Below, piece after piece: positions 7,783-38,198 of a DNA stretch of 64,000 nt. This stretch comes from Variovorax sp. PBL-E5 (lineage in GTDB: Bacteria; Pseudomonadota; Gammaproteobacteria; Burkholderiales; Burkholderiaceae_C), in assembly GCF_901827185.1 (NCBI RefSeq), contig NZ_LR594672.1:186001-250000 (forward strand), read 5' to 3'. The position numbers and the translations under genes were made by a program. Within the stretch, counting starts at the first letter, position 1; each line of letters begins with the position of its first letter. The notes under the pieces were generated by a model, which did no database searches, was not told the DNA's origin, and saw only the letters and a program-made list of their open reading frames with translations.

Positions 7783-7785
7783 GTG

Positions 7786-11898: not shown

Positions 11899-11928
11899 GA
11901 GAAAAACCGCACAGCGTGAGCTGTGCGG
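11899..11928 (-). terminator. Intrinsic terminator of tandem gene 2
   Basis: Stem CCGCACAGC/GCTGTGCGG (11907-11915 with 11920-11928), loop of 4, followed on the minus strand by TTTTTCTC. It is the duplicated counterpart of the terminator at 11120-11150. Confidence 0.8.
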
Positions 11929-11997
11929 TCTAGAACAAGAGTTGCGGCGAACCGCATAGTCCGGTGAGGGGTGCCTGAATGCTTGTGGGTCAAGCAA

Positions 11998-18889: not shown

Positions 18890-19351
18890 ATGGCGACGCG
18901 CAAAGCGAAGACCGGCAAGGTTTCGGCCGGCGCCGGAGAGTGCGGGGGTGACGTGAAGGCGCAGGCGGCGGGCAAGGTGAAAGAGGACGTCACAGACAAT
19001 TGGAGGCGCCTGCTTATCGACCACATCGTCTTTGGCCTCCTCTCGTACGACATCCAAGGTAGGCGCGAGGGCACCTCGATTCACGGCGCGATGAAGCGCT
19101 GGCGCCGGCTTTGCGAAGAGGGGCTTCGGTTCGGCCGGGGTCCAGACGAGATATGGCCGACGCGCTTCTGGTTGGGGACGCAAACCGACGTCGTCTTGGA
19201 CCTTGGTTGCGGAGACGCGTTTCTGGGGACGCGGCTGACCCAGGCAGGGCACGTCGAGTACATCGGCATCGACTCCTCCGCCGAATGCTTGAAATCCGTC
19301 CAGCTGACGAAGCACAATGACGGTGACGGTTCACAACCTGGAGGGCGATGA
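18890..19351 (+). CDS. Module gene A, copy 1, N-terminal fragment (methyltransferase)
   Basis: 153 codons from ATG 18890 behind AAGGAG. About the first 145 residues align with the start of the intact paralogue at 34481. They include LLSYD, SIHGAMKRWRRLCEEG, and the SAM-binding glycine loop LDLGCGD followed by YIGID. After LTKH the frame is lost: one extra A before 19317 moves the coding into the next frame, and the last codons here are out-of-frame readthrough. As it stands this fragment would be an incomplete Rossmann fold. Confidence 0.75.
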   Translation: MATRKAKTGKVSAGAGECGGDVKAQAAGKVKEDVTDNWRRLLIDHIVFGLLSYDIQGRREGTSIHGAMKRWRRLCEEGLRFGRGPDEIWPTRFWLGTQTDVVLDLGCGDAFLGTRLTQAGHVEYIGIDSSAECLKSVQLTKHNDGDGSQPGGR

Positions 19352-21098
19352 CCCGCTGGCCCCTATTGGGCATCTGCGACAGCGCCCACAGTTCATTTTG
19401 GCCGTCCGACTCTTTGACCACATCAAGGACCCGGCAAAACTCTTGGCTGAGATTGGACAGCGCTACGAACCTGGCAGGTCCGCGTCGATGCTGGTTGTGA
19501 CGAGTAACTTGCGCTATTTCCGTAAAACGGGGCACCCCCCTGACTTCGGAGAGCAGCCGCAGGTAGGGGGGCTTACTGAATGCCGAGACGGCCAGCAGCG
19601 CTTTCTGAGGTCCCGCACGGAGATGCGCAGGCTGTTTCGTGACGCAGGGTTTCTTATTTACGACGAGGCATCGCCCTTGCTTCCCGCCGGCGCGCAGGAC
19701 CTGGACGGCTTCACTTGGCGAGAAGGTGACCATGCGGTGGCACCGTTTCACGTCTGGCTACTTGGTATCCACAGCACGCGCCGAGAGCCGGCCAATGCAA
19801 CCCAGATTGAGAAATGGCTGAGCGAACTGACGTCAGAACGCGACGCGCACGGTACGGCCCACCTGCTCCTGGAGGCCATCAAGGAGAACCTTGACGGTGT
19901 TCACTGGCGCACGATTCCTGCAGATTCGCCACTCATTTACAAGCACAACACCGGAGGTCAGGTCTTCATCGTGCGCACCGGCAGGTTGGGTGCATACATG
20001 CCTGGCACCGAACCCGGGGCCGTCCGGAGGGTGGCAAAGTCGAAGGGGACGGCGGCAGAGGCGGAACTACCGCAACCTCCCGCCCCGCCCCCTCCACCGC
20101 GACAGCCCAGGGTCGTCTTAGACCCGAACGAGGCCTTTGGCGAGCTCGAAATTTTCGACCACGAGACGGAGCACGACCGACGTTTCGTCTCATCGGTGTA
20201 TGGCATGCCTTTGGACAGGCGTGTACCTCTGTCGGATGTACTCGTGCTGCCCCAAGAGACGGTCCAAATACTAATGAAGCTTCCTAAAGTGCTGGGCAAT
20301 CCCATGCTCGTTGACCTGCGGACGAAAAGCCTGGAGTCGTCGTTGCGCTATGAGGCACCCTACGTTGGCACGTCCAAGCTCTCGTTTCAAATCGCTGGTG
20401 CCCCCCACCCGCGTGTAGTTGAGCCGGTCAACGTCAGCATGGTTGCATCCCTCCTGGCCTTGGCCCTGGAAGCAGACCGCGAGAAGGCGCTTTACGCGCT
20501 TGATGGACGGCGCGTCATCTACATCGACCGCATTCACGAGGCGCCGTCGCGGCTCTTCCAGCGATTTCCGGGTCGGGATGTCCGGGCCGCCATCAATGGC
20601 GCACTCGAGTACCTGCAGGCAGCAGGTGTGCTTGGCCTCATGCGGCCGGTCCCGCTAATGGCGACTCCAAAGGAGAGGGAGGAGCGCTATGCGCGGCTAC
20701 GCGAAGTAGCCAAAGAACGAAACGTGCACAGTGCGCTGGCCACAATCGAAAAGTCCGCGCCTGCCAGCGCCGCGGTCTTCGAACGGTTTCTGAAGAACCC
20801 GTTCTATTGCCTGATTATCGTCGAGGCCGATATGTCGCTTCGCAAGTTCGTGCTGGAGCCGACCGAGGAGCTTTTCACAGATACGAACGCTTCAATCGTA
20901 GCGAAGGGGAAGCCGAGCCCTGAGTCGTTGGCGTTCTGGCACGACGAAATGGTCAAGGTCAGCATGGACTTTTGGAGAACGCGCATCGAGGCGGATGCCT
21001 GGTGGTACGACAGTCTGGGCACCCCGCTCGCCGTGGGCCGCCAAACCGCCCCGCACCATGAACCGTTGGTCTCCAGCACTCCTGAGCCAATGCGGTGA
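19317..21098 (+). CDS. Module gene A, copy 1, C-terminal fragment (methyltransferase rest, cNMP-binding-like, HTH-like)
   Basis: 593 codons that continue gene A after the single-base shift. The ATG at 19317 falls exactly where the paralogue reads FMQVLVRNLEEDDP. This piece holds the rest of the methyltransferase (ILAVRLFDHIKDPAKLL), a cyclic-nucleotide-binding-like barrel (FIVRTGRLGAYMPG, later FGELEIF and FVSSVYGMP), and an HTH-like segment (AAINGALEYLQAAGVLGLM). It stays free of stops, so the shift is recent, an error, or bypassed by reinitiation at this ATG. Compared with copy 2 it has an extra Pro-rich loop near residue 245. Confidence 0.75.
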   Translation: MTVTVHNLEGDDPLAPIGHLRQRPQFILAVRLFDHIKDPAKLLAEIGQRYEPGRSASMLVVTSNLRYFRKTGHPPDFGEQPQVGGLTECRDGQQRFLRSRTEMRRLFRDAGFLIYDEASPLLPAGAQDLDGFTWREGDHAVAPFHVWLLGIHSTRREPANATQIEKWLSELTSERDAHGTAHLLLEAIKENLDGVHWRTIPADSPLIYKHNTGGQVFIVRTGRLGAYMPGTEPGAVRRVAKSKGTAAEAELPQPPAPPPPPRQPRVVLDPNEAFGELEIFDHETEHDRRFVSSVYGMPLDRRVPLSDVLVLPQETVQILMKLPKVLGNPMLVDLRTKSLESSLRYEAPYVGTSKLSFQIAGAPHPRVVEPVNVSMVASLLALALEADREKALYALDGRRVIYIDRIHEAPSRLFQRFPGRDVRAAINGALEYLQAAGVLGLMRPVPLMATPKEREERYARLREVAKERNVHSALATIEKSAPASAAVFERFLKNPFYCLIIVEADMSLRKFVLEPTEELFTDTNASIVAKGKPSPESLAFWHDEMVKVSMDFWRTRIEADAWWYDSLGTPLAVGRQTAPHHEPLVSSTPEPMR

Positions 21099-21160
21099 CG
21101 GTCGAGGCCTAAGGCCTTGCGGTGGGAGGCAGAATGTTAAATCGTTTGCGAAAAGCGCCT

Positions 21161-21173
21161 TAGTACGGTACTA
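21161..21173. promoter_or_regulatory. Palindromic operator candidate of the AbiE pair
   Basis: TAGTAC G GTACTA is a perfect palindrome 13 bases before the abiEi start, within an AT-rich segment that also holds CATAAAAT. AbiEi antitoxins are known autorepressors that bind inverted repeats in their promoter. Confidence 0.6.
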
Positions 21174-21186
21174 TTCGCATAAAATC

Positions 21187-22041
21187 ATGAGACCCATCTC
21201 GCCCCTGTCTCAGCCAGACACTCGCCGTGCAGGTCTCGAGCCTGCCCTGCGCAAAATCCAGGCCCAGGCTCGTTACCTCGTGCGTGCCGACGAGTTGGCC
21301 AAGCTCACGGGCCGGGAGCCAGGTGGCGATGCGATGAAATCGGCGCTTCGGCGTGTCGCTCAACAAGGCCTCGTCACCCTGGCTACGAAGCGTCCTTCGA
21401 CATGGCTCATCGTTCCGCCCGAGCACAGCCATTTTGGGGCGCCTCCGGTCGAGTGGTGGCTGGACGACTATTTGAAGGATGTCGAGCCACACTACTACCT
21501 TGCGTTGCTGTCGGCCGCCAGGCATTGGGGCTCCGCGCACTATGCGCTGCAAGCCACCCAAGTGATGGTTAGCCGGCCGCGGCGCGCCCAAACCATAGGC
21601 CGCCTGCGCCTGGACTTCACCGTGAAGAAGTCCATAGACAAGACACCGGTCGACTACGTCACCACGCCGGTGGCGCGTCTACGGGTCAGTACCCGCGAAG
21701 CGACGCTCCTGGACCTGGTTCGACATCAGTCCCAGGTTGGTGGCATCGAGTCGGTCGCTCGAATCGCCAAGGACCTCGCGCCGTCATTGAAATCCGATGC
21801 GCTCTTGCAAACCCTGGACGCGCTCGACCAGGTGCCGGCAGTTCAGCGCCTTGGCTTCGTCCTCGATACGCTCAAGTTAGGGGAGCAAAGCCATGTCCTC
21901 AAGAGCTGGTTGACTGGACGGCACCGGGCGTCGCAGCCCCTGGAACCAGCCAAGGTTGCGCCGTCGGGCGTGTTGCACGATTCAACGTGGGGCGTGGAGC
22001 ACACCCTGCATCAAAGAAACAGTATTTCGGAGCTCGCTTGA
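21187..22041 (+). CDS. abiEi: Type IV toxin-antitoxin system antitoxin AbiEi
   Basis: 284 residues from ATG 21187; the frame further upstream overlaps module gene A. An N-terminal winged helix (about residues 20-75, ARYLVRADELAKLTG, MKSALRRVAQQGLV) leads to the AbiEi domain with PPVEWWLDDYLK, HYYLALLSAARHWG and ATQVMVSRPRR. In known pairs the antitoxin represses the operon and counteracts the AbiEii toxin without forming a stable complex. The stop overlaps the TTG start of the toxin gene. The pair sits directly after module copy 1. Confidence 0.88.
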   Translation: MRPISPLSQPDTRRAGLEPALRKIQAQARYLVRADELAKLTGREPGGDAMKSALRRVAQQGLVTLATKRPSTWLIVPPEHSHFGAPPVEWWLDDYLKDVEPHYYLALLSAARHWGSAHYALQATQVMVSRPRRAQTIGRLRLDFTVKKSIDKTPVDYVTTPVARLRVSTREATLLDLVRHQSQVGGIESVARIAKDLAPSLKSDALLQTLDALDQVPAVQRLGFVLDTLKLGEQSHVLKSWLTGRHRASQPLEPAKVAPSGVLHDSTWGVEHTLHQRNSISELA

Positions 22042-22904
22042 TACCCCTGAAGGAAATTGTGCCTTGGCGCTCCAAGGCACCATGGAGCGACGACTTGATG
22101 GTGGAGCAGGACTACCTGCTCAGCCAAGCCGTAGGCGCAATCTTCGCGGACGAGAAGCTGCGAAAGCAACTCGCCATGCGCGGCGGCACCGTTCTTCACA
22201 AAGGACACCTGGCTCCGGCGAGTCGATATTCGGAGGACATCGACCTTGTGCTCACGGCGAAACGGTCAAGGAGTGGCATCTCTGCGGACATTGCCACGGC
22301 GCTCAAGCCGCTGCTGGGCGAGCCCTCGGAGGTTGTTCGCACAACGGTAACGCTGGCAGTTCGGAACTTCCTCTCCAAGTCGGAAATTGCACGGGTCACC
22401 TACGTCTATGGGCCAACAAGCCTGTTGGCCGCCCAGGCCAAGCTAAAAATCGAGGTGAATCTGAACGAGCAGACGAGCCTGTACCCGCTGACCACCGTGC
22501 CTATCGAGATGCCGTTGGCAGGAGGCGGCGTCGGTTCGGTACTCGTCCCCTCGTACGACCTCGACGAGATGCTGGGGACGAAGCTGCGCGCATTACTGCA
22601 ACGCGAGCACGGCCGCGACCTTTACGACCTTTGGTGGGCCTGGACCGCATCGCAGGCGCAAGGCGCCGTCGCCCGAGTGCAGCCAGCCCGCGTAGCGGAA
22701 GCGTTCCGCTACTACATGGCCCAGGAGGGAAGCACATTCACCGCGGATGACGTCAAGTCTGAATTGCTGCGGCGAATGGGTTCAAAGAAGTTTCTCAATG
22801 ATATGGCGGACTACCTGCCGGTTGGTGCGACGTACAACCCGCAGGTTGCCTGCAGCGAGTTCTTGGACGTGTTTTTGCCCCACCTTACGGCGAAATCCCG
22901 TTGA
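22038..22904 (+). CDS. abiEii: AbiEii-type nucleotidyltransferase toxin
   Basis: 288 residues from a TTG overlapping the antitoxin stop (TTGA). I chose it because the family typically starts IP.....W...APW..D..VEQD, as here. The nucleotidyltransferase signature is intact: MRGGTVLHKG (48-57) and YSEDIDLVL (64-72). Downstream are KIEVN and RDLYDLWWAW. Members of this family transfer nucleotides to targets such as tRNA acceptor stems and block growth, giving abortive phage defence. Key Asp residues are present, so it should be active. Confidence 0.88.
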   Translation: MIPLKEIVPWRSKAPWSDDLMVEQDYLLSQAVGAIFADEKLRKQLAMRGGTVLHKGHLAPASRYSEDIDLVLTAKRSRSGISADIATALKPLLGEPSEVVRTTVTLAVRNFLSKSEIARVTYVYGPTSLLAAQAKLKIEVNLNEQTSLYPLTTVPIEMPLAGGGVGSVLVPSYDLDEMLGTKLRALLQREHGRDLYDLWWAWTASQAQGAVARVQPARVAEAFRYYMAQEGSTFTADDVKSELLRRMGSKKFLNDMADYLPVGATYNPQVACSEFLDVFLPHLTAKSR

Positions 22905-25486: not shown

Positions 25487-26344
25487 CTAGGTCACTTGGC
25501 GGACGACGCTGTCGAGGTCCTTCCCCGCTTTGTTCTTCCAAGTCTTCCAGCCGTTCATGTTGTTGCCAACCACGATTGCAGCGGCAGCGCTCGGCGTCGG
25601 AAACGGATAGGTCTGCGTGAAAATCAAATGCTCGCCCTCCTGCTTGAGCACTCCAGCTGCTTCCAACTTTTGGCGCTTCACGTGAAAGCTCTTGTCTTTG
25701 AAACTGTCGGTGACGCTCAGACGGGCCTTTGAGCCCTTCAAAACAACCAGCCCTTCAGCTGTGTAATGGCCGCGAGCGTCAGTGCCTGCTGCATTGCAAT
25801 AGTAGAGCTCGAGGTTGGTTTTGCTCTCAACAGCCCCCGGCTTCTCAAACAGGAAAAAGCCGAGGGTGCTCATGAGGGTCTCCCCCGTATCGAACAGCTC
25901 GTCGCACTCAGACTCGAGCGGCTTTGAGGTATTCAGCTTGTTGCCGTTGGTGTCGTTCTCAATGACGCAACGGCCCGCCTCCTTGGCTTTTTGAATGCAA
26001 AGTCGCTCCAGATAGAGCGAATGCGTCGTCGTCAGGCTCTCCGCACGACTGAGCAGGACCACGACGCGCTGCCAGAAATCCTTCTTCTTCTGGTGCTCGA
26101 CCAAGCGTTTCTTGAGGTCGGTTGTCTGGCCGATGTAGACGAGGGGCTTTGCGGCCTCCTCCGCGTCTCCGAATAGGAAGTACACCGCGCCACCGGCGGC
26201 CTCGGGCATCGCCAGGAACTCCTTCAAAAGAGCGCGCGGCACGTCGATGACTCTCACGATGCGCGTGGTGATTTCCGCTTGGCGAATTCCTTGGGGGTCT
26301 CCAGAAGGGAGGAATATCTGAATTGTCTTGGCGCGGGAGGACAT
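25487..26344 (-). CDS. GIY-YIG nuclease with DUF4357 domain
   Basis: 285 residues. The GIY-YIG catalytic module lies at about residues 50-135: AVYFLFGD (the GIY strand, degenerate), VYIGQTTDLKKRLVEH (YIG plus the Arg helix), and a later Glu in LERLCIQKAKEAG. The C-terminal domain (GHYTAEGLVVLKGSKA through NGWKTWKNKAGKDLDSV) fits DUF4357. Proteins of this layout are common in mobile and defence regions. The gene lies 81 bases downstream of the helicase-nuclease gene on the same strand, so the two may be cotranscribed. Confidence 0.85.
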   Translation of the reverse strand: MSSRAKTIQIFLPSGDPQGIRQAEITTRIVRVIDVPRALLKEFLAMPEAAGGAVYFLFGDAEEAAKPLVYIGQTTDLKKRLVEHQKKKDFWQRVVVLLSRAESLTTTHSLYLERLCIQKAKEAGRCVIENDTNGNKLNTSKPLESECDELFDTGETLMSTLGFFLFEKPGAVESKTNLELYYCNAAGTDARGHYTAEGLVVLKGSKARLSVTDSFKDKSFHVKRQKLEAAGVLKQEGEHLIFTQTYPFPTPSAAAAIVVGNNMNGWKTWKNKAGKDLDSVVRQVT

Positions 26345-26425
26345 CGGGTTCTTCTTGTGAGTTGACGGCGCGAACTCCTAGCTCGCACCAAAAAAGACGG
26401 GCAGTATCCGGCAAATCCTGACAGG

Positions 26426-29400
26426 TTAGATTTCCGATGTGGATTGCTCGACTTGCTTTCCGGACCCGAGGGATTCCGCCTCTGATGTCGCGGCGGCAAT
26501 CGCATCCTCAACCGCTTGGGCTGCCGGGTCCGATTCCGAAGCCTCCTCGAGCTCAGGCAAGCGCCACTCCCGATACTCGACCAGCGAAGGCGCACGCTCC
26601 AGAGCGCCCAGAGGCTCGATGCCCATCGCCTTCAGGCGAGCAAGCAGCTCCTCGACGACCTCGTCTCTCCGCAGCGACCAGGTCGAAGCGAAGCAGCGCC
26701 AGAACGTCCAGCCGGCTCGCTCGAGCACGCGCTGGCGGCCCATGTCGGCCTGCCAACGGTCGGGCCCGTGGAACTCGTCCCCGTCACATTCGATGGCCAG
26801 GCGAGCATCGTCAGCGCCTTCGACCACCATGTCGATGCGGAAGGAGCCTGCCTTCACCTGCGGCACCACGCGATAGCCGCGGCTGTAGAGCTCGGTGTAG
26901 ACCTGTTTCTCGAAGCCAGATTCGCACAGCTCGATGAGCGACTTGGCCTGGTCGTCCTTGAACTCCTCCATCGGCCGGCTGAAGTGCTCCAGGAGCCCAC
27001 GGCGCAGGTCCAGGTGCGACAGGTCTGACATCTGAACCGAGCGCACCAGGTACATCCGGTCTCGTGCACGGCTTGCCGCTACGTTGAACCGCTGCTCGGA
27101 ACTGTTGCCGGAGAGCGCCTTCGAGCGCTGCGGGTCAGCGACCATCGAGAGGAACATGATGTCGCGTTCGCTGCCCTGGAAAAGGCGGGCGTCGCCCACG
27201 TCGAACCGCCGGCGGATGAGTTCCTTGGCATCTAGGCGCTGACGCACCAAAGTATCAATTCTCTTGGCCTGTTCGGGGCCCAGGAGTGACACGACCCCGA
27301 TGGTCCGGCCGGCAAGCTGTGGGTTGGCGACGATGGCCTCGATTTCCGCCAGGATGCACTGCGCTTCCAGGCTGTTCTCGTCCTTCACGCCGCGCATGCC
27401 GCCGGGCACGAAGATGTCCACAAGCGGAGGGTCGATGCGCTCAGAGGCCTTCGGAATGCGCAGGGGCTGGATGCCGTCGTAGAACCTGTCGCTGTAGGCA
27501 ATGATGGCCGGCACGCAGCGGAAGTGTTCCCGCAGCATCACCTTCTGGGCCGCGAAGACGGTTGAGGCGATGTCGTAGAGCGACTTCTCCGGCGTCAGCA
27601 CGGTCGCGTACGGCTGCTCGCTCAGGAACCGGTCACGCAGTTCCTGAATTCGAACGGCCGAGACGAAGCTGCCGTCGGGCGAGACCTGCTTATCGTCTCC
27701 GACCACCAGAATCTTCTTGCCGCGCAGCACCGCGGGCAGCGCCCACAGGTCCGACTGGCTTGCCTCGTCGACGATGACGAGGTCGAAGGCGCCAAGCTGC
27801 GCCGGGAGGCTCTCGGACACCTTGGCGTGGCTCATCACCCAGCAGGGGATGGCGCCCTGCGCGTCCAGCATCGCTTTCTGCGCGTCGCGACGGTGCCGCG
27901 TCGCATTCGGGCCGGTGCCCATGCCGATACGGCGGACCGCTGTCCGGTAGGTCTCCAGTGCCGCCAGCACTCTTGGCGAAGCTCCGAGCTTGGTTGAGAG
28001 CCAGGCGGATTTGGACACGACGCTCTCGTAGAGCCGGGCGAGGCCTGCCTCCAGGTCTCGCCGGCGCGCCGCGAGTGTGCGCAGCTCTTCGCGCGATTCG
28101 ATGGCATCCAGATGGGCGCGGACACGCGACCACGTCCAGGCCTCGCGCCAGCTGACTGGCAGGACAGGGTCATCTCCAGACGCGTCGACCACCGAAGTTC
28201 TGATTCGCACAGCAAGCTTGGCGGCGCCGGCGCGCTCCAACCTGTCCGCCACGTCGTTCACCAGCGCCAGGTCATGGCCGAGGCCTTCCACTCGGCGCAC
28301 GTCACTCACGAGCTCCGCGTATCGTGCCGTGGCCCGTTCAACAGGGATGGCTGTGTTGCCTAGCTCATTCGCAACGAAGGCGCGCAGGGCGTCGGAGACC
28401 GGACCGGTCGTTCCCGCAAGCTTCTCCTGCAGCGTCACCAGGGTCGTGGCTGCCTTGGCCAACTCGAGACGGGTCAGATGACTGCGCAGATGGCGCTGCA
28501 TCTCTTCGAGCTGGGAGGACAAGCCACGCAGCAGCATCTTTGGAGGGTTCGCAAAAACGCGTTCTCCAAGAGCCGGCAACTGCGCGTCGAACTGCATGGC
28601 TAGCGTGTGTGCCTTCCTGGCAATGCCCGTGACCAGCTCAACGCGCCGCAGCCCGACCACGCCACCCTTGAGCTCAGGCAAGGAGAGAAGGTCGGCGACC
28701 TCGTTCCACCGCACGCCGAACGAAAGAACTTGTTCGTGGAGCGCCAGGTAGCGGTGCACGTGCTTCCAGTGGTCGACGGAGGCAGGCGCCAGGCCGCTTA
28801 CCCGGATGGCATTCACGAGCTCCTTGATGTCGCTGCCGCCGAAGCTCATGAGACCAAAGGGTTTGCCGGTTTCCGCAGCGCGCTGCACGGCTTCGCGCAC
28901 CTTCGGCTGCGCCAGCGCCTGCTCAGGCACCTCCACCGGCGTCTTCAGGAACTGGGCGCGCGCTGCAATCAGCTGCTCGATGTTGGCAAAGAGTGCCTCG
29001 AAGGCGGCCCGTTCGCTCGCAAAGGTCGCCTGGCCACACTTCTTGCGCAGCTCCAGGGTCCACAGCTCGCCGGATTCCTCGAGCTCGAAAGCGAGTTGCC
29101 GTGCCTCCTCGACCTTTGCCAGCAGGCGACGGGCGTCATCCAATACCTCAGGGGTCATGGCGCGCAACGCCAGCAGGCCTCCATTGGCTTCTGCAGCCTC
29201 GATTTCGCGCAAGCTGACCAGCGCGTCGTGCAGCTGGGCCACCTCTGCAGCTGGCAACAAGGCGTTGCTCGAAGGGATGCGGGCGAGGGCGTAGTCCAAG
29301 TCTTGGCCAAGCCGGCGACGGGCTTCACGGGTCTGGGCGGCCAGCGCTGCGTCCATGGGCGGCGCATGCGCGGCATCGAGCGACAGCGCGTCATCGAACC

Positions 29401-31045
29401 ATGCGTGCTTCTCCTGGCCCGAGATGACCAGCTCTGCCATCTTTTGCGCGCGCATCTGCACCCCGTCGACCTCGATGTCCGAGAGCTGTGCCATCGCAAT
29501 CGCGTCCACCCGTCGGTCGATGGTCGCGAGCTCCTCGTGCGCGCGGTCGATGCCGCTGCGCTCGGTGCGAATCTGCTCGTTCACCACCTCGGGGTTGAGC
29601 TGCGAGACGTTGTGGATGATGGCCTCGATGGAGCCCTGAAACTGGCGCATGCCTTCGCGGTCACCGGAGAGGAGCGCCACGGTCAGCGGCCGGACGGTCT
29701 CCGGAATCTTGGACTGCAGCACCTCGAGCGCCTGCTCGCCTTTGGAGGTCACCAGCACCTTACGCCCCGTGGCCAGGTAGTGGCAAACGATGTTGGCGAT
29801 GGTGTGAGTCTTGCCCGTCCCGGGCGGGCCTTGCACGGCGACACCACTCGAGCGTTCGAGCTGCTCGACGATGGTGACCTGCTCGTGGTTGTAGGGCAGG
29901 GGGAAGAAGAGCTCCTGCACCTGGTTGCGGCCGCCGTAGTTGCCTGAAACACCGGAGAGCCCGCGGAACGCGACCGGCACGTGCGTGGCCAGTTGGTCCG
30001 ATGGTGGCGTGACCAGCGAGAGTGGCCCGAGAGGAATCTCGACGCCGGGCGTGAGGCGCGCCTTCAGGCGCTCGATGTCCTCTTCCAGGTAGTTGACGGA
30101 CTTCGGGCGGGACAAAAGAACCCATGCGTCGGTGACCACCAGGTCCTCGCCAGGCTTCGGGAAGGCCTCTGCTCCAGGCTCGTAGCGCCCCTTGTCATGC
30201 AGGTTGCCGGCGATGAGCTTGAGCAGGTGCTCGTAGCTGCCCGAATCAAAGGGGCTCACTGGGCGGTCTGCGCTCTTCTCCAATGCCGCGCGAGCGGCCT
30301 TCTCGACCTCGGGCGCGCTGAGCAGCTGGCAGGCAGCGAACGCATCGAACGAGAACTGCGGGCCGACGGCGCGCGGGCGCAGCTCAAGCGCTAGCGTGCG
30401 GTCATCCATCCCGACCTCGAGAGCCTGAGTGATGAGCGGGTACTGGAAATCGACGACCGATGTCGTGCCGCGCTCAGTGTAATTCAGCTTCCAGGCTGAC
30501 ACGCCCACGCCCCAGACGAGCTCATGGGGCTTGGCGGTCTCCTCGGCCTCCAGCTGATGCTTGATGGCAAAGAGGTCGCCGTAGAGCGCGATGGTCTTGC
30601 GGCGGGGCTTCTCGCCGGTGGCCCAGGCTGTCCACAGCTGGGTGTACGCCCCAAGGGCTTCTTCGAGCCGGGTACGTGCTTCGGCGACAAAGACGACCCG
30701 CTCCTCGGCGAGCATGGCTTGGGTCGCAGCTGTCATCCGATGCTCAAACGCGACCTCGTCGATGCTCGGGCGGGCGCCCGTGGGCTCGCGGTGCGCGACG
30801 ATGAGGGGCTTCCACTCGTCGTTCGGCAGCGCCGGCGGCGGGTGCGCTTCAAGGCGCGCCACCTTCAGCCACACATGGTCGCCGTCACCGGCCAGGTCGA
30901 AGTCAACACCGGGCAGGCCTTGGAGGTCGGGCTTTGCCTTCTGGAAGCCGCCCTGGCCAGAGAGCTGGAAGGCCGTGGGGTCGACGGTCTTCGCTTGCTC
31001 GAGCACGTAGTCGAGCAGCTTCTTCATCAGGTCGGGCGCGTTCAT
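26426..31045 (-). CDS. SF1 helicase with C-terminal Vsr/MTES_1575-like nuclease
   Basis: 1539 residues. The N-terminal domain (about 1-380) resembles DUF4011-type regions of large defence helicases. The helicase core has Walker A GPPGTGKTHT at about 405, a long helical insertion (about 480-1030), Walker B-like LVIVDEASQSD and later motifs (RFNVAASRARDRMYLV). The C-terminal 110 residues (GSFRIDMVVEG, LAIECDGDEFHG, RQRVLERAGWTFWRCF) form a very-short-patch-repair-like endonuclease with the Asp and Glu-x-Asp expected. Such fusions occur as anti-phage proteins. ATGA overlap with an upstream small gene. Confidence 0.9.
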   Translation of the reverse strand: MNAPDLMKKLLDYVLEQAKTVDPTAFQLSGQGGFQKAKPDLQGLPGVDFDLAGDGDHVWLKVARLEAHPPPALPNDEWKPLIVAHREPTGARPSIDEVAFEHRMTAATQAMLAEERVVFVAEARTRLEEALGAYTQLWTAWATGEKPRRKTIALYGDLFAIKHQLEAEETAKPHELVWGVGVSAWKLNYTERGTTSVVDFQYPLITQALEVGMDDRTLALELRPRAVGPQFSFDAFAACQLLSAPEVEKAARAALEKSADRPVSPFDSGSYEHLLKLIAGNLHDKGRYEPGAEAFPKPGEDLVVTDAWVLLSRPKSVNYLEEDIERLKARLTPGVEIPLGPLSLVTPPSDQLATHVPVAFRGLSGVSGNYGGRNQVQELFFPLPYNHEQVTIVEQLERSSGVAVQGPPGTGKTHTIANIVCHYLATGRKVLVTSKGEQALEVLQSKIPETVRPLTVALLSGDREGMRQFQGSIEAIIHNVSQLNPEVVNEQIRTERSGIDRAHEELATIDRRVDAIAMAQLSDIEVDGVQMRAQKMAELVISGQEKHAWFDDALSLDAAHAPPMDAALAAQTREARRRLGQDLDYALARIPSSNALLPAAEVAQLHDALVSLREIEAAEANGGLLALRAMTPEVLDDARRLLAKVEEARQLAFELEESGELWTLELRKKCGQATFASERAAFEALFANIEQLIAARAQFLKTPVEVPEQALAQPKVREAVQRAAETGKPFGLMSFGGSDIKELVNAIRVSGLAPASVDHWKHVHRYLALHEQVLSFGVRWNEVADLLSLPELKGGVVGLRRVELVTGIARKAHTLAMQFDAQLPALGERVFANPPKMLLRGLSSQLEEMQRHLRSHLTRLELAKAATTLVTLQEKLAGTTGPVSDALRAFVANELGNTAIPVERATARYAELVSDVRRVEGLGHDLALVNDVADRLERAGAAKLAVRIRTSVVDASGDDPVLPVSWREAWTWSRVRAHLDAIESREELRTLAARRRDLEAGLARLYESVVSKSAWLSTKLGASPRVLAALETYRTAVRRIGMGTGPNATRHRRDAQKAMLDAQGAIPCWVMSHAKVSESLPAQLGAFDLVIVDEASQSDLWALPAVLRGKKILVVGDDKQVSPDGSFVSAVRIQELRDRFLSEQPYATVLTPEKSLYDIASTVFAAQKVMLREHFRCVPAIIAYSDRFYDGIQPLRIPKASERIDPPLVDIFVPGGMRGVKDENSLEAQCILAEIEAIVANPQLAGRTIGVVSLLGPEQAKRIDTLVRQRLDAKELIRRRFDVGDARLFQGSERDIMFLSMVADPQRSKALSGNSSEQRFNVAASRARDRMYLVRSVQMSDLSHLDLRRGLLEHFSRPMEEFKDDQAKSLIELCESGFEKQVYTELYSRGYRVVPQVKAGSFRIDMVVEGADDARLAIECDGDEFHGPDRWQADMGRQRVLERAGWTFWRCFASTWSLRRDEVVEELLARLKAMGIEPLGALERAPSLVEYREWRLPELEEASESDPAAQAVEDAIAAATSEAESLGSGKQVEQSTSEI

Positions 31046-31239
31046 TGGGCACCTGCTTTCTCGAGCTCGCGCGCGGCCGGCGGGTTGGCGCTCAGGCCGT
31101 GGGTCCGGCAGTAGTCGAAAAGAAGTTTTTCGAGGAGGTTCGTCTGGCTGCGCTGCTCGTGAGCTGCGGCTCGCTCGAGGAGGAACTTGAACTCAGGCGT
31201 CACTCTGAAACTAATCGAGACGTTCTTCTCTGCGGCCAT
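31042..31239 (-). CDS. Small ribbon-helix-helix-like protein heading the helicase operon
   Basis: 65 residues. A beta strand (KNVSISFRVTPE) is followed by helix one (FKFLLERAAAHEQRS) and helix two (TNLLEKLLFDYCRTHG), then a Pro/Ala tail, as in CopG-like DNA-binding proteins. It overlaps the helicase start by ATGA, so the two are coupled. The pattern SQTNLLEKLL matches SLTNMFEVLV in the small gene before hsdM. A TGTAT...ATACA inverted repeat lies 26-46 nt upstream of its start. Confidence 0.75.
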   Translation of the reverse strand: MAAEKNVSISFRVTPEFKFLLERAAAHEQRSQTNLLEKLLFDYCRTHGLSANPPAARELEKAGAQ

Positions 31240-31822
31240 TTGGCTCCTCTTTGCTTTTATCGGCTGTATAGAGGTTCACCATACAAGACTTCGCTGTGTT
31301 GCCGACTGCTTGCGGCTCAATGAACTGGTGCACCTGTGAAGTTGTTTGCACCATCGCTTGCTGTGACGGGCAGGACAGGGCAGATGGGCGGCTCAGCCCT
31401 CGGACGAACGGCCGTGCAACGCCGCCGACGAGTTCAAAGGACAGGTTCAAAAAGCTGAAAAGGGCCACTTCTATGTTGTGTGGTCCAGACTTTCCAGCCG
31501 ACGTCCCGCGGCAGGGCGGCCAAGGTGTTCCCTCGGGATGAAACCTACGCAGCCATTGGCCCATGGATGATGCCGGAGTACGCGTTCTCGAGCGCCTGTG
31601 CCAAAGCTGAAATCATGAGACAGTGCCGCCGTGCCATGGCTGTGTATGCGACGCGGCAGGCTAAACTGATACGCTATAGGCTACGTTTTAAAGGTAGAAT
31701 TCAAAGATGACGGTTTTAAGCAAGCTAAGCATTTCCAAGGCGGTTGTCCGCCATGCTGCGCTTGCACGATGTCTGTGCGCGAATCACGTCAACCGATTCC
31801 CGCAGCCATCGAACGAACCATC
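31240..31822. other. Divergent intergenic region between helicase operon and cysS
   Basis: No supported gene: frames on both strands have no start signals and unlikely composition. It holds the operator at 31265-31285 on the left. On the right is an AT-rich promoter zone with CTATAG (31674-31679), GTTTTAAAGG and GGTTTTAAGC, followed by a small hairpin AGGCGGTTGTCCGCC before the cysS starts. Confidence 0.5.
31265..31285. promoter_or_regulatory. Inverted-repeat operator candidate of the helicase operon
   Basis: TGTAT (31265-31269) and ATACA (31281-31285) form a spaced inverted repeat overlapping a TATA-type promoter element just before the ribbon-helix-helix gene. Such proteins usually repress their own promoter. 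Confidence 0.45.
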
Positions 31823-33136
31823 ATGCATCTCAAAGATTCCCTCTCGGGCGCGCTGAAGCGCGTCGAACCCACCGACGTTTCAATCTACGCTTGCGGCATC
31901 ACGCCGTACTCGTCCGCGCATGTCGGTCACGCACGCACCTATGTCGTCTTCGACCTCCTGAAGCGCGTCCTCACGGCGCAGGGTCACCGTGTGCGCCTGG
32001 TGCGCAACATCACAGACATTGACGACAAAATCATCAACACGGCCAAGACGGCCGGCGTTGCCTGGCACGAGCTCTCGGACAAGTACGCCGAGGAGAACCG
32101 CCAGCTGATGCGCGCCACCGGGCTGGATGTTCCGGAGGAGCCGAAGGCGAGCGAGTACCTGGCCGACATGTTCTGGCTCATGAAGCAGCTCATCGGCCTG
32201 GGGCTGGCCTACGTGGCGAGCACGGGTGACGTGCTCTACCGGGTGAGCGCCTATGACGGTGCACTGTTGATGCCCCACAAGGAAGGCGCACTTCGCTCGG
32301 AGCAAGGCGCCACGCGGGTGAGTACTGACGGCAAGGAGGACCTGCGGGACTTTGCGCTGTGGAAAACCACTTCTCGGGATGAGCCTGGCTTCGAATCGCC
32401 CTGGGGCTGGGGCCGCCCGGGCTGGCACATCGAGTGCTCCGCAATGATTCGCGCGCTCTTTGGCGGCAGCGTGACCATCCACGGAGGCGGCGTCGACCTC
32501 AAGTTCCCGCACCACCAGGCGGAGATGATGCAGTCGGAGCCGGTGTTCGGCCGGCCCCTGGCCGAAATCTGGATGCACAACGGCTCGGTCCTGTCCGATG
32601 GTCGCAAGATGAGCAAGAGCGAGGGCAACTTCGTCACTTGGCAGGCGGCCCTCGACTCCGCGGAGGCGTTGGCGCCGGGCCTGGGCGGGCAGCTGCTGAG
32701 CTTCGCGCTGGTGCAGGCTCACTGGCAGAAGCCGCTGGACTGGAATGACAAGCTTCTGGCGTCCACCCATGCGGACGTGCTGCAGCTCACCCAGGATTTG
32801 GCTGGCGTTGTGCCTGGGACAGCGGATGCTCTCATTGAGGTTCTGGCGGACAACCTGAATGCACCTGCCGGCAGCTTTTGGCTGAAGCAGGAGCTCAAGG
32901 GCGGCACACCTGCGCGATTGGCGGCCGGTCTGCACTTCTTCGGTATCGACGTCGATGCCTGGGCCCGCCTGCCCCGTTCGGCCGCGGTGAGCTTGAGCCA
33001 CACGGACATCGACGACCTGCAGTCGCAGCGACAGCAGGCCCGGGCTGCCAAGAACTGGGCGCTCGCCGACGAAATCCGCCAGCGGTTGAATGCCCATGGC
33101 GTTGCCGTCAGCGACGCGCCCGTCGCGCAGCTGTAG
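31823..33136 (+). CDS. cysS: Cysteinyl-tRNA synthetase, divergent accessory copy
   Basis: 437 residues from ATG 31823; an in-frame ATG at 31769 would add 18 residues unlike the family. Charges tRNA-Cys with cysteine. The HIGH region reads HVGHAR, NITDIDDKII is intact, and the KMSKS loop reads GRKMSKSEGN. Zinc ligands are present: Cys in YACGIT, Cys in WHIECSAM, and His and Glu in FPHHQAE. The C-terminal helical domain is shortened and lacks the usual ending TxWR. Its place in an accessory region suggests a second, specialised copy. No ribosome-binding box is obvious. Confidence 0.88.
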   Translation: MHLKDSLSGALKRVEPTDVSIYACGITPYSSAHVGHARTYVVFDLLKRVLTAQGHRVRLVRNITDIDDKIINTAKTAGVAWHELSDKYAEENRQLMRATGLDVPEEPKASEYLADMFWLMKQLIGLGLAYVASTGDVLYRVSAYDGALLMPHKEGALRSEQGATRVSTDGKEDLRDFALWKTTSRDEPGFESPWGWGRPGWHIECSAMIRALFGGSVTIHGGGVDLKFPHHQAEMMQSEPVFGRPLAEIWMHNGSVLSDGRKMSKSEGNFVTWQAALDSAEALAPGLGGQLLSFALVQAHWQKPLDWNDKLLASTHADVLQLTQDLAGVVPGTADALIEVLADNLNAPAGSFWLKQELKGGTPARLAAGLHFFGIDVDAWARLPRSAAVSLSHTDIDDLQSQRQQARAAKNWALADEIRQRLNAHGVAVSDAPVAQL

Positions 33137-33235
33137 TCCGACTCGGCTCGAAATTCCATCCCCAAGGACGCCTTGTGCCGCGAGAACGATGGCAAGCCTG
33201 CACCTTGCGAGGAGGCATTTTGGGCAGCTGACGGC

Positions 33236-33264
33236 CGAAAACAAAATGCCCTGCATCGCAGGGC
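33236..33264 (-). terminator. Terminator of module copy 2 leftward genes
   Basis: Perfect stem GCCCTGC/GCAGGGC (33248-33254 with 33258-33264), 3-base loop, then ATTTTGTTTTC on the minus strand. Confidence 0.75.
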
Positions 33265-33285
33265 TTCCTCCGACTCTGGCAAGGA

Positions 33286-33807
33286 CTACTGGTCGGAATG
33301 CCCGCGGGCCTTTGCTGCATGCGAGCTCGCGTGCCACAGGCTTTCGAACACTTCGTAGGCCACGATGAGTCCCAGAAGCTCATGCATGCCCAGCACGGCA
33401 GCGCATGCCGTCGGGCCCAGCTGAGAGGCATGCCACAGCCACATCGCGAGCGGCGCCAGCATGACCCCGTTCGCCACTGCATCGACCAGGCCAAGCCAAG
33501 AGCTCAGGCGGAGCTGCGCTTTGGGCAGGAGCCGACGAACGCACGCACCGAAGGTGCGGGCCCACCTAGGCTGCTCGTTTCCGTAGCGGGCCAGCACATA
33601 CGCTTTCGCGGGGGCCCCAAACAAATGCACCGAAAGCTTGGCCGCGACGTAGATGGCGGCCAGGGCGTTCGGGTCGGTGAAGACCGATACCGCGTCGGCC
33701 AGGTTCTGCGCCGCCAACAGGCCGCGGGCCACCGCGAACACGCCCGCGCTGTGAGCGGCTTGCGTGCCCAGCAGAAGGAAACCCCAGAGTGTCAGTTTAG
33801 TGCTCAC
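33286..33807 (-). CDS. Module gene C, copy 2: intact multi-pass membrane protein
   Basis: 173 residues from GTG 33807 (behind AAGGAG), matching the start of copy 1. Four hydrophobic stretches by eye: residues 5-30 (LTLWGFLLLG...), 46-65 (ALAAIYVAAKLSVHLFG), 100-130 (SWLGLVDAVANGVMLAPLAMWLW), 134-155 (ACAAVLGMHELLGLIVAYEV). His residues occur in or beside three of them. It overlaps gene B by 11 bases, so translation is coupled. No family recognised; a channel, pore or sensor is possible, but this is inference. Confidence 0.8.
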   Translation of the reverse strand: MSTKLTLWGFLLLGTQAAHSAGVFAVARGLLAAQNLADAVSVFTDPNALAAIYVAAKLSVHLFGAPAKAYVLARYGNEQPRWARTFGACVRRLLPKAQLRLSSWLGLVDAVANGVMLAPLAMWLWHASQLGPTACAAVLGMHELLGLIVAYEVFESLWHASSHAAKARGHSDQ

Positions 33808-34102
33808 TTTCGGCTCCTTGCATGATGTGTGCTGTGGTGGCAGCGCGAGGCTTGTTGAACTCGGCTTCGAGCAGATGAGGTGCAAAACGCTCCTCGTGCT
33901 CGCGCTTTTGGATGGGCGCCGGCGGCTGGGTAGGTTCTGGCTCGTGGCCGCCTCCGTGGGTATCGCCGTGGGTTCCGCTGAAAAAGGCACCAAGGGATAA
34001 GCCGAGCGACACGGCGACGGCGGTTGCCAGCCGACGCACAGCAGGTTCCTTCAGGCAGGCGGTCGCGACGGCGGTGATGACCTGGACGATGGGGCTGAAC
34101 AC
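33797..34102 (-). CDS. Module gene B, copy 2: small Gly/His-rich membrane protein
   Basis: 101 residues from GTG 34102. The GTG is preferred over ATG 34138 because the ribosome box CCGGAG and the following start align base for base with copy 1. One membrane helix lies at about residues 25-42 (ATAVAVSLGLSLGAFF), followed by SGTHGDTHGGGHEPEP and a Pro-rich, charged tail. It shares HEP..PPA.I.K with copy 1. Topology (short basic N-terminus) suggests the His-rich tail lies outside the cytoplasm or in a complex with gene C. Confidence 0.75.
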   Translation of the reverse strand: MFSPIVQVITAVATACLKEPAVRRLATAVAVSLGLSLGAFFSGTHGDTHGGGHEPEPTQPPAPIQKREHEERFAPHLLEAEFNKPRAATTAHIMQGAESEH

Positions 34103-34480
34103 GACAATCTCCGGTTGGGTTTTAGATGACCCAATCATCCGGATTGAAACGGGAAAGTCTTTAGGGTACTTTGCGTTGACTCTAAAACGTTCCCTGAACT
34201 CGCCGCCCGGGCTACTGAGCCACCGCGCAGCACGGTCCGAAAACCGTCGTCAGGGCGTTTCAGGGGGCCGAAAGACGAGGGCCGGGAAAACCCCAGTGCC
34301 TTGTCATCGGGTCGGGGCCCCTCGTCGCAGTGCTCGGCTCAGCGGACCGTCGTATTCGGCGGAATTCTGCCATGCGTGCGGGCGTGGGGGTAACGTCCAG
34401 GCGTGGAACCTTCATATCAAGAACGCGTTTTTTGGGCAGAATTCTCCGCTTCGGGGAATCCTCCTCGACGGAGGACAGGC
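34103..34480. promoter_or_regulatory. Divergent control region of module copy 2
   Basis: Near gene B: CAATCTCCGGTTGGGT (34105-34120), then TTTAG and CTAAAACG hexamers as in copy 1. Near gene A: TATCA (34415-34419) and GGCAGAAT...CCGCTT (34435-34451), the latter exactly 46 nt before the A start as in copy 1. No gene seen in this stretch. Confidence 0.5.
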
Positions 34481-36580
34481 ATGGCAGCGCAAGACGCAGA
34501 GGATGTCGATGGTGCCGACCAGGGCCGGGAGGTCCGAGACGCTGGCGACGCAACCGATGAGCTTCGCCGAGAACTGGTCGACCCAATCGTGCAAGGTCTG
34601 TTGTGCTACGACCCCACGGGAAGCCGAGATGTCACCTCCATCCAGGCGGCGCTACAGAGGTGGGAGGGGCTTTGCGACCAGGCGACAAGCGCTGAGTTGA
34701 CGCCAGAGAAGATGTGGACCTACAAGGATTGGCCCTCCAACAAGCGTCACGACAGAGTGCTGGACCTCGGGTGTGGCGATGCAGTCATCGGCCACAAACT
34801 GATGAATGCGCCGAATGTCGCCGCCTACGTCGGCGTGGATAAGGAATCGGAACGGCTCAAGGCTGCGCAGCCCTCCAAGTTCATGCAGGTTCTCGTCAGG
34901 AACCTCGAGGAAGACGACCCCTTCGGATTCATAGACACGAAGGAGATGCCGAACATCATCCTGGCAATTCGGCTTTTCGACCACATCGCTGACCCGGCTA
35001 AGCTTTTGCTCGCACTCGGGCAGCTGTTCGAACCGGGCCGGGAAGGAATCATGTTGGTGGCGACGAGCAACAGGCGCTATTTCAAGAAGGACCTGGGTCC
35101 CGAAGACTTCAGCACTGAAAAGCAGGATGAGCCCTCCTTGACCGAGTGCCGGGATGGGCTCCATCGGCATTTGCGGTCCCGAACGGCGATGAGACGACAC
35201 TTCCGAGACGCAGGCTTTCACGTCTTCGACGAGGCCTCACCCCTCCTTCCGGCGAGCATCGACCGTCTCAAGGGTTTCACAAAGCGCAACGGAGACCACG
35301 CGGTAGCGCCATTCCACATCTGGTTGCTTGGGATATACAGCACACGGCGCATTCAGGCCTCACGCAAGGACATCGACAAGTGGGTTGCAGAGCTCGCGGC
35401 CGCGCGTAGAAGTCTCGGGCCAGAGGAAAACCCCGGTCCGGCCCACTTGCTGCTGAGCGCCATCAGCGACGATATCCTCCCTGGTGTGCATTGGCGCACG
35501 GTTGCCGTCAACCATCCGATAGCCTACAAGCACAACACGGCCGGCCAGGTCTTCATTGTTGAGAGTGGACGATTCGGAGCCTACCTTCCTGGTACTGAGC
35601 CATCCCCGGCCCTCACCGTCAGTGCGGAGCCTCGAGTGGTCTTCGACCCCAACGAGGTGTTTGGCGAGCTCGAGGTGTTCAACCAGGACAGGGAGCATGA
35701 CCGACGCTACGTGGCTTCGGTCTATGCCATGCCGGGCGAAGACAAGGCTGCCAAGTTCTACAACGTGTTGGTCCTTCCTGTGAAGCCGACGGTGCAGGCC
35801 TTGATGGGGGTGGCCACGGTGCTCGGCAACCCCATGCTGCAGGATTTGCGCACGAAGAGTTTGGAGTCGAATTTGCGCTATCACGCCCAATACAACGGCG
35901 TGGAGCGCTTCAGCTTTACCTCCCCGACCGGGGTGACCACGACTGTAAGGCCGGCATTCGTCATCGTGGTGGCATCGCTGCTCGCGTTGGCTCTTGAAGC
36001 GGACAGGGAAAAAGGGCTGTACTCGCTCGATGGACGGCGGGTGGTCTATATCGACCGAATCGACCTGGCAGCGGAACGGCTGCTGCGCCGGTCAGGATTC
36101 AAGGACGCGAATGCCATCAACGGAGCTCTGAAGTATCTCCAGGCCGCGGGCATTATCGGGGTATTGAGGCCTGTGCCTGACGTCGCAGCCGAACGGGTGG
36201 CAGCAGCGGCGCGGCTGGAGCTTGCGGCGAGCGAGCTGTACGGCGTTCGAAAGGCCACGGCTAACGTTCCTGGCAGCAAGGAGGTGTTCGACGGATTCAT
36301 CAGGAACAGCTATATATGCATGGTGCTGGTGGAGCGCGAGATGGCGCTGCGCAAGTTTCTCCTGGAGCCCACTCAGGCGCTATTCGATGAGACAACGAGG
36401 GGAATAGCGGCCCAGGACCCCGCCAGCGCGGAGACGCAGGAGTACTGGCGGGCGGAAATGGACAAGGTGAGCATGCAGTTCTGGAAGCGGCGCATTGAGG
36501 TCGGTGCATGGGCTTACGACAGTCTCGGGTTCCCGTTGTCGAAGTTCGCGGGAGCGAAGCGGCCGGCCAGAGTGCAATGA
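34481..36580 (+). CDS. Module gene A, copy 2: methyltransferase / cNMP-binding-like / HTH-like fusion
   Basis: 699 residues from ATG 34481 behind GGAGG. Residues about 30-90 form a helical N-terminus. About 92-285 is a class I SAM methyltransferase with DLGCGD (95-100), YVGVD (116-120) and ILAIRLFDHI. About 328-450 reads like a cyclic-nucleotide-binding barrel: VFIVESGRFGAYLPG, FGELEVF (394-400), RRYVASVYAMP. About 490-570 is helical, with an HTH-like ANAINGALKYLQAAGIIGVL. A helical C-terminus follows. The cNMP reading is by eye and would place sensing and methylation in one protein. Divergent from genes B and C. Confidence 0.75.
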   Translation: MAAQDAEDVDGADQGREVRDAGDATDELRRELVDPIVQGLLCYDPTGSRDVTSIQAALQRWEGLCDQATSAELTPEKMWTYKDWPSNKRHDRVLDLGCGDAVIGHKLMNAPNVAAYVGVDKESERLKAAQPSKFMQVLVRNLEEDDPFGFIDTKEMPNIILAIRLFDHIADPAKLLLALGQLFEPGREGIMLVATSNRRYFKKDLGPEDFSTEKQDEPSLTECRDGLHRHLRSRTAMRRHFRDAGFHVFDEASPLLPASIDRLKGFTKRNGDHAVAPFHIWLLGIYSTRRIQASRKDIDKWVAELAAARRSLGPEENPGPAHLLLSAISDDILPGVHWRTVAVNHPIAYKHNTAGQVFIVESGRFGAYLPGTEPSPALTVSAEPRVVFDPNEVFGELEVFNQDREHDRRYVASVYAMPGEDKAAKFYNVLVLPVKPTVQALMGVATVLGNPMLQDLRTKSLESNLRYHAQYNGVERFSFTSPTGVTTTVRPAFVIVVASLLALALEADREKGLYSLDGRRVVYIDRIDLAAERLLRRSGFKDANAINGALKYLQAAGIIGVLRPVPDVAAERVAAAARLELAASELYGVRKATANVPGSKEVFDGFIRNSYICMVLVEREMALRKFLLEPTQALFDETTRGIAAQDPASAETQEYWRAEMDKVSMQFWKRRIEVGAWAYDSLGFPLSKFAGAKRPARVQ

Positions 36581-36608
36581 CCCACGGAGATGGCGACGGC
36601 CGCGTCGT

Positions 36609-38198
36609 TCAGTTGGGGAAGAGTGGCGGTATCTCCAGCATCTCCGTCGGGGGCCCGCGTCCTGGCAACATGGCTGTTTCACACTCGTCCGCCACCTTCT
36701 TGAGGTCCCAGGGGCCTATTGCCCGCCTACGGGCCACACTGGATGGCGTGCCGACGGCCGCAAGGACGCTTACGCCGACGTACAGCCACACGTTGCCGCG
36801 CATCTCAGCCTGTTTGAAGGAGCAAAACCGTTCTGCTTCGAGGCGGACGTAAACGCTAAAAGGGCGTCCAAGCTCCAATAGTGCTACGTCCTCCACGACG
36901 CTGCCTCTCACCTGCGAAACGTGCCCAAGTCCCCCGGCGCGCAACTCAGCGGTGCTCGGCTCTCCCTCCTGCTCCAGCGGCTGTGGCGGCCTCATTGCTT
37001 GAGCTGCGAATTCTCCGAAGCTTGGCGTTGCTATAGCGGCGGCTGTGCTTAGCCGGCGGGTGGTGCGCACGCCGGGGCCAAGGATTCTGGGTGTGAAGTA
37101 CAGCAGCTGCTCACCATAGTCCAGGGCAATGCTGCCCGCACCGGACGTGAAGCCCAGGAGCTGGCACTCAATCACTGACTCACCGGCTTGGGTCATTGGG
37201 CCCAACTTGCAGAATGAGGTCAATGGCTCCACCTCTACCGTCTCCTGGGGTTCCCCTCTTGGAGTGCCTGCAACTTGCGCCTGTTCCAGGAGTCCTGAAG
37301 AGGTACTCAGCGCGAGAACAGCGCTCATCAAAATTGCTGCTGGCAGGGAGACTGCAAGCAGGACGAGTGCCGGCGCGGTGAGGATGGAGGACAAAAGACC
37401 TGCCCACCTGCGGCGAAAAAGGGCTCCCGCAAGGCTCCGGGAAGCGCGAATCGCCGCGACCACGAGAGCGAGATACAAGGGGACTAAAGCCAAGTACGAC
37501 AACAAGCTCGCAACAAGCCCCGCATACATGGCGGTCGGCAGCTCACGGGGCGAGGTGGGCACACTGTTGAAGTCGTAGTTGCCTAGTCCAAGCACCCCGC
37601 GTATTGGTGCAAGCGGAACCAAGGCGCCCGAGACCAGAAATGCAATCAGCCAGGCGCTGAGCGCGAGGGCGAACGTCGTCGCGGCCAGCAGTCGGACACC
37701 GTGGGCAGCGCGACCATTTACGAGCTTCGCAGCAAACCAAGGGACCAGCGCCCAGGCCAGCCCGAGAGCAAGCAAAGGTACAAACGCCGCGAGGTATCGC
37801 GATGGCGTCAGCACGTTGCCGAGCGATACCGCCAGCGAAAAGGGGTCTACTATGCGCGGCCCATGGGCGAGCACTGGGTAAAGGACGCTGAATAGCGCGG
37901 TGGACACCAGGAGCACGCCAACCCAGCCGAGGACGCGCCTATCGGCCTCCAATTTGCAAAGCTTGTCGACGGGATGCCGACTCATCAACGTGCCGTAGCC
38001 GTGGATGACGGAGCCCCACACCCGCTTGACCAATTCCAGCCAGCCTGCAAGCCAGTCTTCCCCTTCGGATACCAGAGGAAGCCGCTGCCGCAGCTTCTGG
38101 GTCTCCTGTGCCATCCTACGGGAACGGGACCGAAGTGAGCCCCCGGGTTTCCGCGCTGCGGACCCTCTCAAGCTCCAACGCCTTTTTGGGTGGGCCAT
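36609..38198 (-). CDS. Multi-pass membrane protein, 529 aa
   Basis: Start at 38198 (MAHPKRRWSLRG) behind AAGGAG. The first 95 residues are basic and soluble. About six to seven membrane helices follow between residues 90 and 310 (GVLLVSTALFSVLYPVLA; YLAAFVPLLALGLAWALV; LLAATTFALALSAWLIAF; GLVASLLSYLALVPLYLALVV; APALVLLAVSLPAAILMSAV). Next is a soluble domain of about 150 residues with SFCKLG and VIECQLLGF, and a last helix near 480. Convergent with module gene A, 28 bases apart. Family unknown. Confidence 0.75.
   Translation of the reverse strand: MAHPKRRWSLRGSAARKPGGSLRSRSRRMAQETQKLRQRLPLVSEGEDWLAGWLELVKRVWGSVIHGYGTLMSRHPVDKLCKLEADRRVLGWVGVLLVSTALFSVLYPVLAHGPRIVDPFSLAVSLGNVLTPSRYLAAFVPLLALGLAWALVPWFAAKLVNGRAAHGVRLLAATTFALALSAWLIAFLVSGALVPLAPIRGVLGLGNYDFNSVPTSPRELPTAMYAGLVASLLSYLALVPLYLALVVAAIRASRSLAGALFRRRWAGLLSSILTAPALVLLAVSLPAAILMSAVLALSTSSGLLEQAQVAGTPRGEPQETVEVEPLTSFCKLGPMTQAGESVIECQLLGFTSGAGSIALDYGEQLLYFTPRILGPGVRTTRRLSTAAAIATPSFGEFAAQAMRPPQPLEQEGEPSTAELRAGGLGHVSQVRGSVVEDVALLELGRPFSVYVRLEAERFCSFKQAEMRGNVWLYVGVSVLAAVGTPSSVARRRAIGPWDLKKVADECETAMLPGRGPPTEMLEIPPLFPN

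Follow-up and report, generated by a model that had tools for sequence, protein, structure and literature searches.

A putative Crp/Fnr-type regulator with a methyltransferase domain faces two membrane protein genes on a Variovorax megaplasmid

A stretch of 64,000 nucleotides from Variovorax sp. PBL-E5 (contig NZ_LR594672.1, positions 186,001 to 250,000; called the window below, and the source of all coordinates given here) carries a set of three genes, A, B and C (bp 33,286–36,580), in which A diverges from the B-C pair. The explanation that we favor, with a probability of about 0.45, is that A is a one-component regulator of the Crp/Fnr type with an S-adenosylmethionine (SAM)-dependent sensor or enzyme domain, and that it controls the divergent B-C operon. 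The A protein would bind DNA in the 378 bp intergenic region that separates A from B (bp 34,103–34,480), and its methyltransferase and cyclic-nucleotide-binding (CNB)-like part would respond to SAM or to some other small molecule, though probably not to a cyclic nucleotide. This response would determine how far B and C are expressed, and these two membrane proteins would carry out the actual function; the whole unit would have been duplicated, with its second copy now decaying. Where a Crp/Fnr-type protein is encoded opposite a two-gene membrane operon, the arrangement is usually that of a local regulator with the genes it controls, and regulation of B-C by A is favored because A appears to be such a protein and faces such an operon.

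Gene A (bp 34,481–36,580, + strand; RefSeq WP_068674501.1) is open from its ATG at bp 34,481 and encodes 699 amino acids. On the corresponding plasmids of strains WDL1 and SRS16, RefSeq names the product "class I SAM-dependent methyltransferase." The order of domains is SAM methyltransferase, CNB-like barrel, winged helix and a further C-terminal part, so the reading of A in the first-pass annotation, a methyltransferase joined to a CNB-like barrel and a helix-turn-helix-like segment, is borne out. The methyltransferase domain (bp 34,733–35,224, + strand; residues 85–248) has the SAM-binding domain with motif I that marks class I enzymes, here LDLGCGD. It gives the strongest match of the whole protein, to Pfam Methyltransf_23 (E 1.2e-12, above the cut-off), and UbiG-type PDB chains match it with E 4e-5. 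The SAM-binding domain and its motif are thus shared with the UbiG-type and Methyltransf_23 enzymes; A differs from UbiG, however, in scoring 31 bits against a cut-off of 102.95 and in being fused to a Crp-like module. Among the eight Pfam families that match A at E ≤ 1 there is no DNA-methylase family, such as a DNA methyltransferase of a restriction-modification (R-M) system should match, and the only PADLOC match, mad2, is weak and lies over the methyltransferase stretch (E 2.3e-5).

The barrel (bp 35,462–35,800, + strand; about residues 328–440, with FGELE at 394–398) and the winged helix (bp 36,029–36,166, + strand; about residues 517–562, where the hhalign alignment continues past the barrel) were recognized through a profile of the C-terminal part built from three sequences: A itself, its second copy in the window (A2) and an outside relative, P0003, the last two of which are described below. 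Aligned by hhalign with ten Crp/Fnr-like proteins of its own genome, this profile gave a probability of 94.7 (E 6.2e-8) over 189 columns that run from the barrel through the winged helix, and with all 16 CNB proteins found in that genome it gave 96.0 (E 4.5e-9, 188 columns); the reversed query against the same ten proteins gave 0.1. The Pfam cNMP_binding family matches A itself only with E 0.15 (a score below the curated cut-off) and the best of the three members with 4.2e-4. When a profile of A was run against 360 genomes of the class, two genomes besides its own matched (E 9.7e-7 and 2.4e-5), both in the barrel only, and these matches are frames of 214 and 165 amino acids that read by eye as CNB proteins. 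AlphaFold2 models of full-length A and of residues 310–590, each built from three sequences, were both of low confidence and were used through Foldseek and VIA only. The 50 Foldseek matches listed for the 281-residue low-confidence model all look like CNB or Crp-type proteins, which lends weak support, and the structure comparison barely covers the winged helix. At the level of these profiles, A appears to contain a CNB-type β-roll and, as judged by the sequence profile only, a winged helix after it, and is best described as a class I SAM methyltransferase with a Crp/Fnr-like module. It resembles the regulators CRP, NtcA, CooA and Vfr, entries of which are among the first Foldseek rows, in having the barrel and then the winged helix, but differs from them in its N-terminal methyltransferase, its extra C-terminal part and the residue at the phosphate-binding position discussed below.

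It is also conceivable, although somewhat unlikely, that A acts mainly as an enzyme that methylates small molecules or proteins, in which case the barrel and winged helix would form an allosteric or protein-binding module and B and C would be membrane partners. The strength of the methyltransferase match, its SAM motif and its UbiG-like relatives are in keeping with this, as is a stretch after the methyltransferase core (LRSR..MRR.FRDAGF) that is strongly conserved in A, A2 and P0003. On the other hand, the barrel is followed by the winged helix just as in the Crp/Fnr proteins that they match, and the divergent layout is typical of regulators.

The first-pass annotation called the barrel cyclic-nucleotide-binding-like, but the sequence does not support binding of a cyclic nucleotide. 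Functional cyclic-nucleotide binders carry an Arg in the phosphate-binding cassette; in the register of the conserved V-x-A, this position is Tyr410 in A, Phe in A2 and Tyr in P0003. None of the positions neighboring the phosphate-binding site has Arg in all three sequences, although the Glu of FGE is retained, and because the Arg is replaced, a cyclic nucleotide is unlikely to be the ligand of A. Within 20 kb, the gene tables of WDL1 and SRS16, which are incomplete, list no nucleotide cyclase or CD-NTase, one of which should lie adjacent in a Pycsar or CBASS system; the AbiEii protein encoded near the second copy is a nucleotidyltransferase of another kind. Pycsar effectors have a CNB domain with a TIR or membrane part and are accompanied by a cyclase. 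A is like them in its CNB-type domain and in the membrane proteins encoded nearby, and a PycTIR CNB domain (8jsk) appears in the Foldseek listing, but no cyclase is annotated near A, a methyltransferase takes the place of the effector, and B and C are encoded separately and divergently.

Genes B (bp 33,797–34,102, − strand, 101 amino acids) and C (bp 33,286–33,807, − strand, 173 amino acids) both start with GTG and overlap by 11 bases. The open reading frames and the WDL1 and SRS16 annotation confirm the three genes, this overlap and the divergence of A as first described. The B protein has a single hydrophobic segment and a region rich in Gly and His, in agreement with its description as a Gly/His-rich one-helix protein. 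C is a membrane protein, and the four helices proposed for it are plausible; three hydrophobic segments exceed the threshold used, and its relative P0005 has one at its N-terminus. Neither B nor C matches a family in Pfam, NCBIfam, PADLOC or PHROGs at the curated cut-off or at E 0.01, the best value being 0.037 for the second copy of B. Five His residues of C (19, 61, 142, 159 and 163) are common to P0005, and three of the five lie within predicted membrane segments. Together with the Gly/His-rich stretch of B these could point to a heme-binding membrane protein C that is regulated by A, a Crp/Fnr-type sensor of redox state or of a gas, with B as an accessory metal-binding protein. This seems very improbable, however: B and C matched none of the families searched, the second copy lacks a His at the positions of His142 and His163, and no heme or metal site was identified in A.

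That A, B and C form a unit was first proposed from their occurring twice in the window with the same divergent geometry. The order and geometry do recur, but the second copy is not intact. A2 is split over two overlapping frames, the first encoding the N-terminal part (bp 18,890–19,351, + strand; annotated as a separate coding sequence) and the second the rest of the methyltransferase through the C-terminus (bp 19,317–21,098, + strand; 54% identical to A by BLASTP). The second B is open (bp 18,197–18,499, − strand, 100 amino acids), and the second C (bp 17,687–18,200, − strand) has a frame broken near bp 18,035. The A2 junction is unchanged in WDL1, SRS16 and a third genome, whose locus ends before the C junction; the latter is unchanged in both WDL1 and SRS16. 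That the frame breaks recur in these genomes makes sequencing error unlikely. The two copies are 38–58% identical in amino acid sequence, and the retention of gene order through such divergence supports the idea that A, B and C are a unit. At codon positions 1, 2 and 3 the copies differ by 0.32, 0.27 and 0.60 in the C-terminal part of A, 0.43, 0.36 and 0.68 in its N-terminal part, 0.43, 0.42 and 0.59 in B, and 0.47, 0.25 and 0.58 and 0.46, 0.37 and 0.61 in two parts of C. Third positions differ most in all the parts compared, as they do in coding genes. A and A2 are equidistant from P0003 (152 of 538 columns identical in each case); A2 therefore has not evolved faster, and either its break is recent or its pieces still work.

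Very few relatives of the set were found. At E ≤ 1e-3, three proteins (A itself, A2 and P0003) match A among 7998 scored candidates from about 5.8 billion, a search in which part of the first-look candidates went unscored and distant relatives may have been missed; the C-terminal profile returned the same three. Outside this Variovorax plasmid lineage the searches found one relative of A (P0003, on a contig of 6352 bases) and one of C (P0005, 68% identical, on a contig of 2907 bases); a C match with E 9.1e-4 was found in genome G1206. In sweeps of overlapping genome samples, whole-query matches to A are limited to its own genome among 300 genomes of the order, 399 of the family, 398 of the phylum and 360 of the class. 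In the sweep of the order 109 of the 300 genomes matched (108 besides its own), and these were rejected as whole-protein relatives, the listed places outside its own genome lying within the methyltransferase (residues 47–247 of A). Matches of the C-terminal profile at loci L036 and L037, two of three in the sweep of the family (the third being L038), were likewise set aside, as they fall on a small gene beside a RecA-like gene, presumably recX. Only two of 100 Variovorax genomes match (its own and G729), and the only plasmid records with relatives are those of WDL1 and SRS16. Viral contigs contain no relatives of A or C, and phage records none of P0003. None of the titles and abstract openings listed by literature searches refers to the module, and the four identifiers of A, B and C returned no papers.

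The window lies on an 839,194-base contig, one of three in the genome. Its bp 14,001–50,000 are identical in "plasmid 2" of Variovorax sp. SRS16 (801 kb) and near-identical in "plasmid 2" of WDL1 (816 kb), in which an IS21 element lies beside AbiE. The first copy is identical in all three, and the second (bp 17,687–21,098) has a single difference in WDL1. Such identity of an intact first copy argues against the improbable case in which A-B-C is neutral or decaying megaplasmid cargo with no present function, as do the excess of third-position differences and the equal distance of A and A2 from P0003; the two broken genes of the second copy and the lack of a match in 98 of 100 Variovorax genomes would fit it. 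Compared with WDL1, bp 27,000–37,999 of the window, the first copy included, show no differences over 11 kb, whereas differences cluster at 25–27 and 41–42 kb, a mosaic pattern.

Several neighbors of the set are defense-like. A type I R-M system lies at bp 4266–10,881 (HsdM 4266–6077, HsdS 6074–7345, HsdR 7783–10,881), AbiE (bp 20,995–22,904) directly adjoins the second copy, and a GIY-YIG/DUF4357 protein (PDC-S14), a 1539-amino-acid helicase (PDC-S37-like) and a 65-amino-acid protein are encoded in a row at bp 25,487–31,239 (− strand), a possible defense operon. In WDL1 the IS21 element follows a shorter annotated AbiEii (locus L034, bp 6328–9287), while SRS16 has no annotated IS21 and a longer AbiEii. 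It was from R-M, AbiE and helicase genes in the region that a signaling or defense role was first suggested; the genes are there, but no feature of A, B or C connects the set with defense. An anti-phage or conflict module akin to Pycsar or CBASS, in which A detects a signal and B and C perturb the membrane, is judged quite unlikely: the set is rare and plasmid-borne and one copy abuts AbiE, but the phosphate-binding Arg is absent, no cyclase or CD-NTase is annotated nearby in the incomplete tables, and PADLOC has no model that B or C matches at E 0.01. The lack of viral and phage relatives weighs little either way.

An element of the form CTTTAG-N17/18-CTAAAAC lies upstream of B (N17, bp 34,159–34,188, + strand) and of its second copy (N18, bp 18,568–18,598, + strand). 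It occurs twice in the window and never in 100 shuffles, the pattern having been derived from these same two sites. A looser form (spacing 16–19, one base less) has six sites in the genome, all on the plasmid contig, against three for the backward-read control; with spacings of 4–34 there are nine, again all on that contig, against eight. The counts alone are not above control, and only the spacing (six of nine at 16–18) and the replicon stand out. On this contig there are three TTTAG...CTAAA pairs with a spacing of 16, five with 17 and three with 18; no other spacing up to 40 has more than three. The element is a lead and is not counted as evidence for the module. No palindromic DNA site specific to A was identified; the element before B recurs elsewhere on the replicon.

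The motif GTTTTAG/CTAAAAC has 90 sites on the plasmid contig (0.84 Mb) and 18 on the chromosome (5.99 Mb); those in the window are at bp 18,592, 18,622, 34,119, 34,182, 40,251, 40,297, 42,580, 60,790 and 63,606. It ranks first of the 105 permutations of its letters in density on the plasmid contig relative to a 360 kb piece of the chromosome (90 to 0; median 28 to 4; GATTTTG 68 to 5). Across the whole genome, however, its backward-read control is commoner (197 sites versus 108), which means that the motif's rarity on the chromosome accounts for part of the contrast. Crude gene calls cover 84% of the plasmid contig, and 64 of the 90 sites lie outside them; the same tendency is seen for ATTTTAG (36 of 53) and TTTAG (327 of 556), unlike GTTTTAC (4 of 26), and a word that ends in TAG should seldom occur inside genes. 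With such mixed controls, a signal private to this replicon is a lead and not proof. KorA was considered as a reader of GTTTTAG on account of its operator, but the genome has no KORA match. A part in promoters was also rejected, as the 90 sites do not keep a constant distance to a −10-like hexamer.

Other features of the window concern the set less directly. A plasmid-borne cysteinyl-tRNA synthetase-like gene beside C (bp 31,769–33,136) scores only just high enough for cysS (344.3 bits against a cut-off of 340) and also resembles MshC, below its cut-off (224.8 versus 485.1 bits); it was left out of the unit because it has no counterpart beside the second copy. The segments at bp 11,194–11,637 and 11,980–12,423 are a tandem duplication (77–78% identical, ungapped), each preceded by a hairpin-like element, CCGCACAGCGTGAGCTGTGCGG (bp 11,117–11,161 and 11,895–11,939). 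An open frame encoding 3309 amino acids (bp 50,770–60,699) is annotated in WDL1 and SRS16 as a choice-of-anchor D domain protein, and Rfam and tRNA scans of the window gave no matches.

If A is indeed a regulator, it may further be, though we consider this unlikely, the founder of a class of one-component regulators whose Crp-type switch has a methyltransferase as its sensor or output, with transcription gated by SAM, S-adenosylhomocysteine or methylation, here wired to a dedicated two-gene membrane device of a megaplasmid. The small number of its relatives would make A a clean but thinly supported test case, and a Crp/Fnr-like module with a methyltransferase fused ahead of it would bring a new type of input or output into a regulator family that is among the best studied in bacteria.
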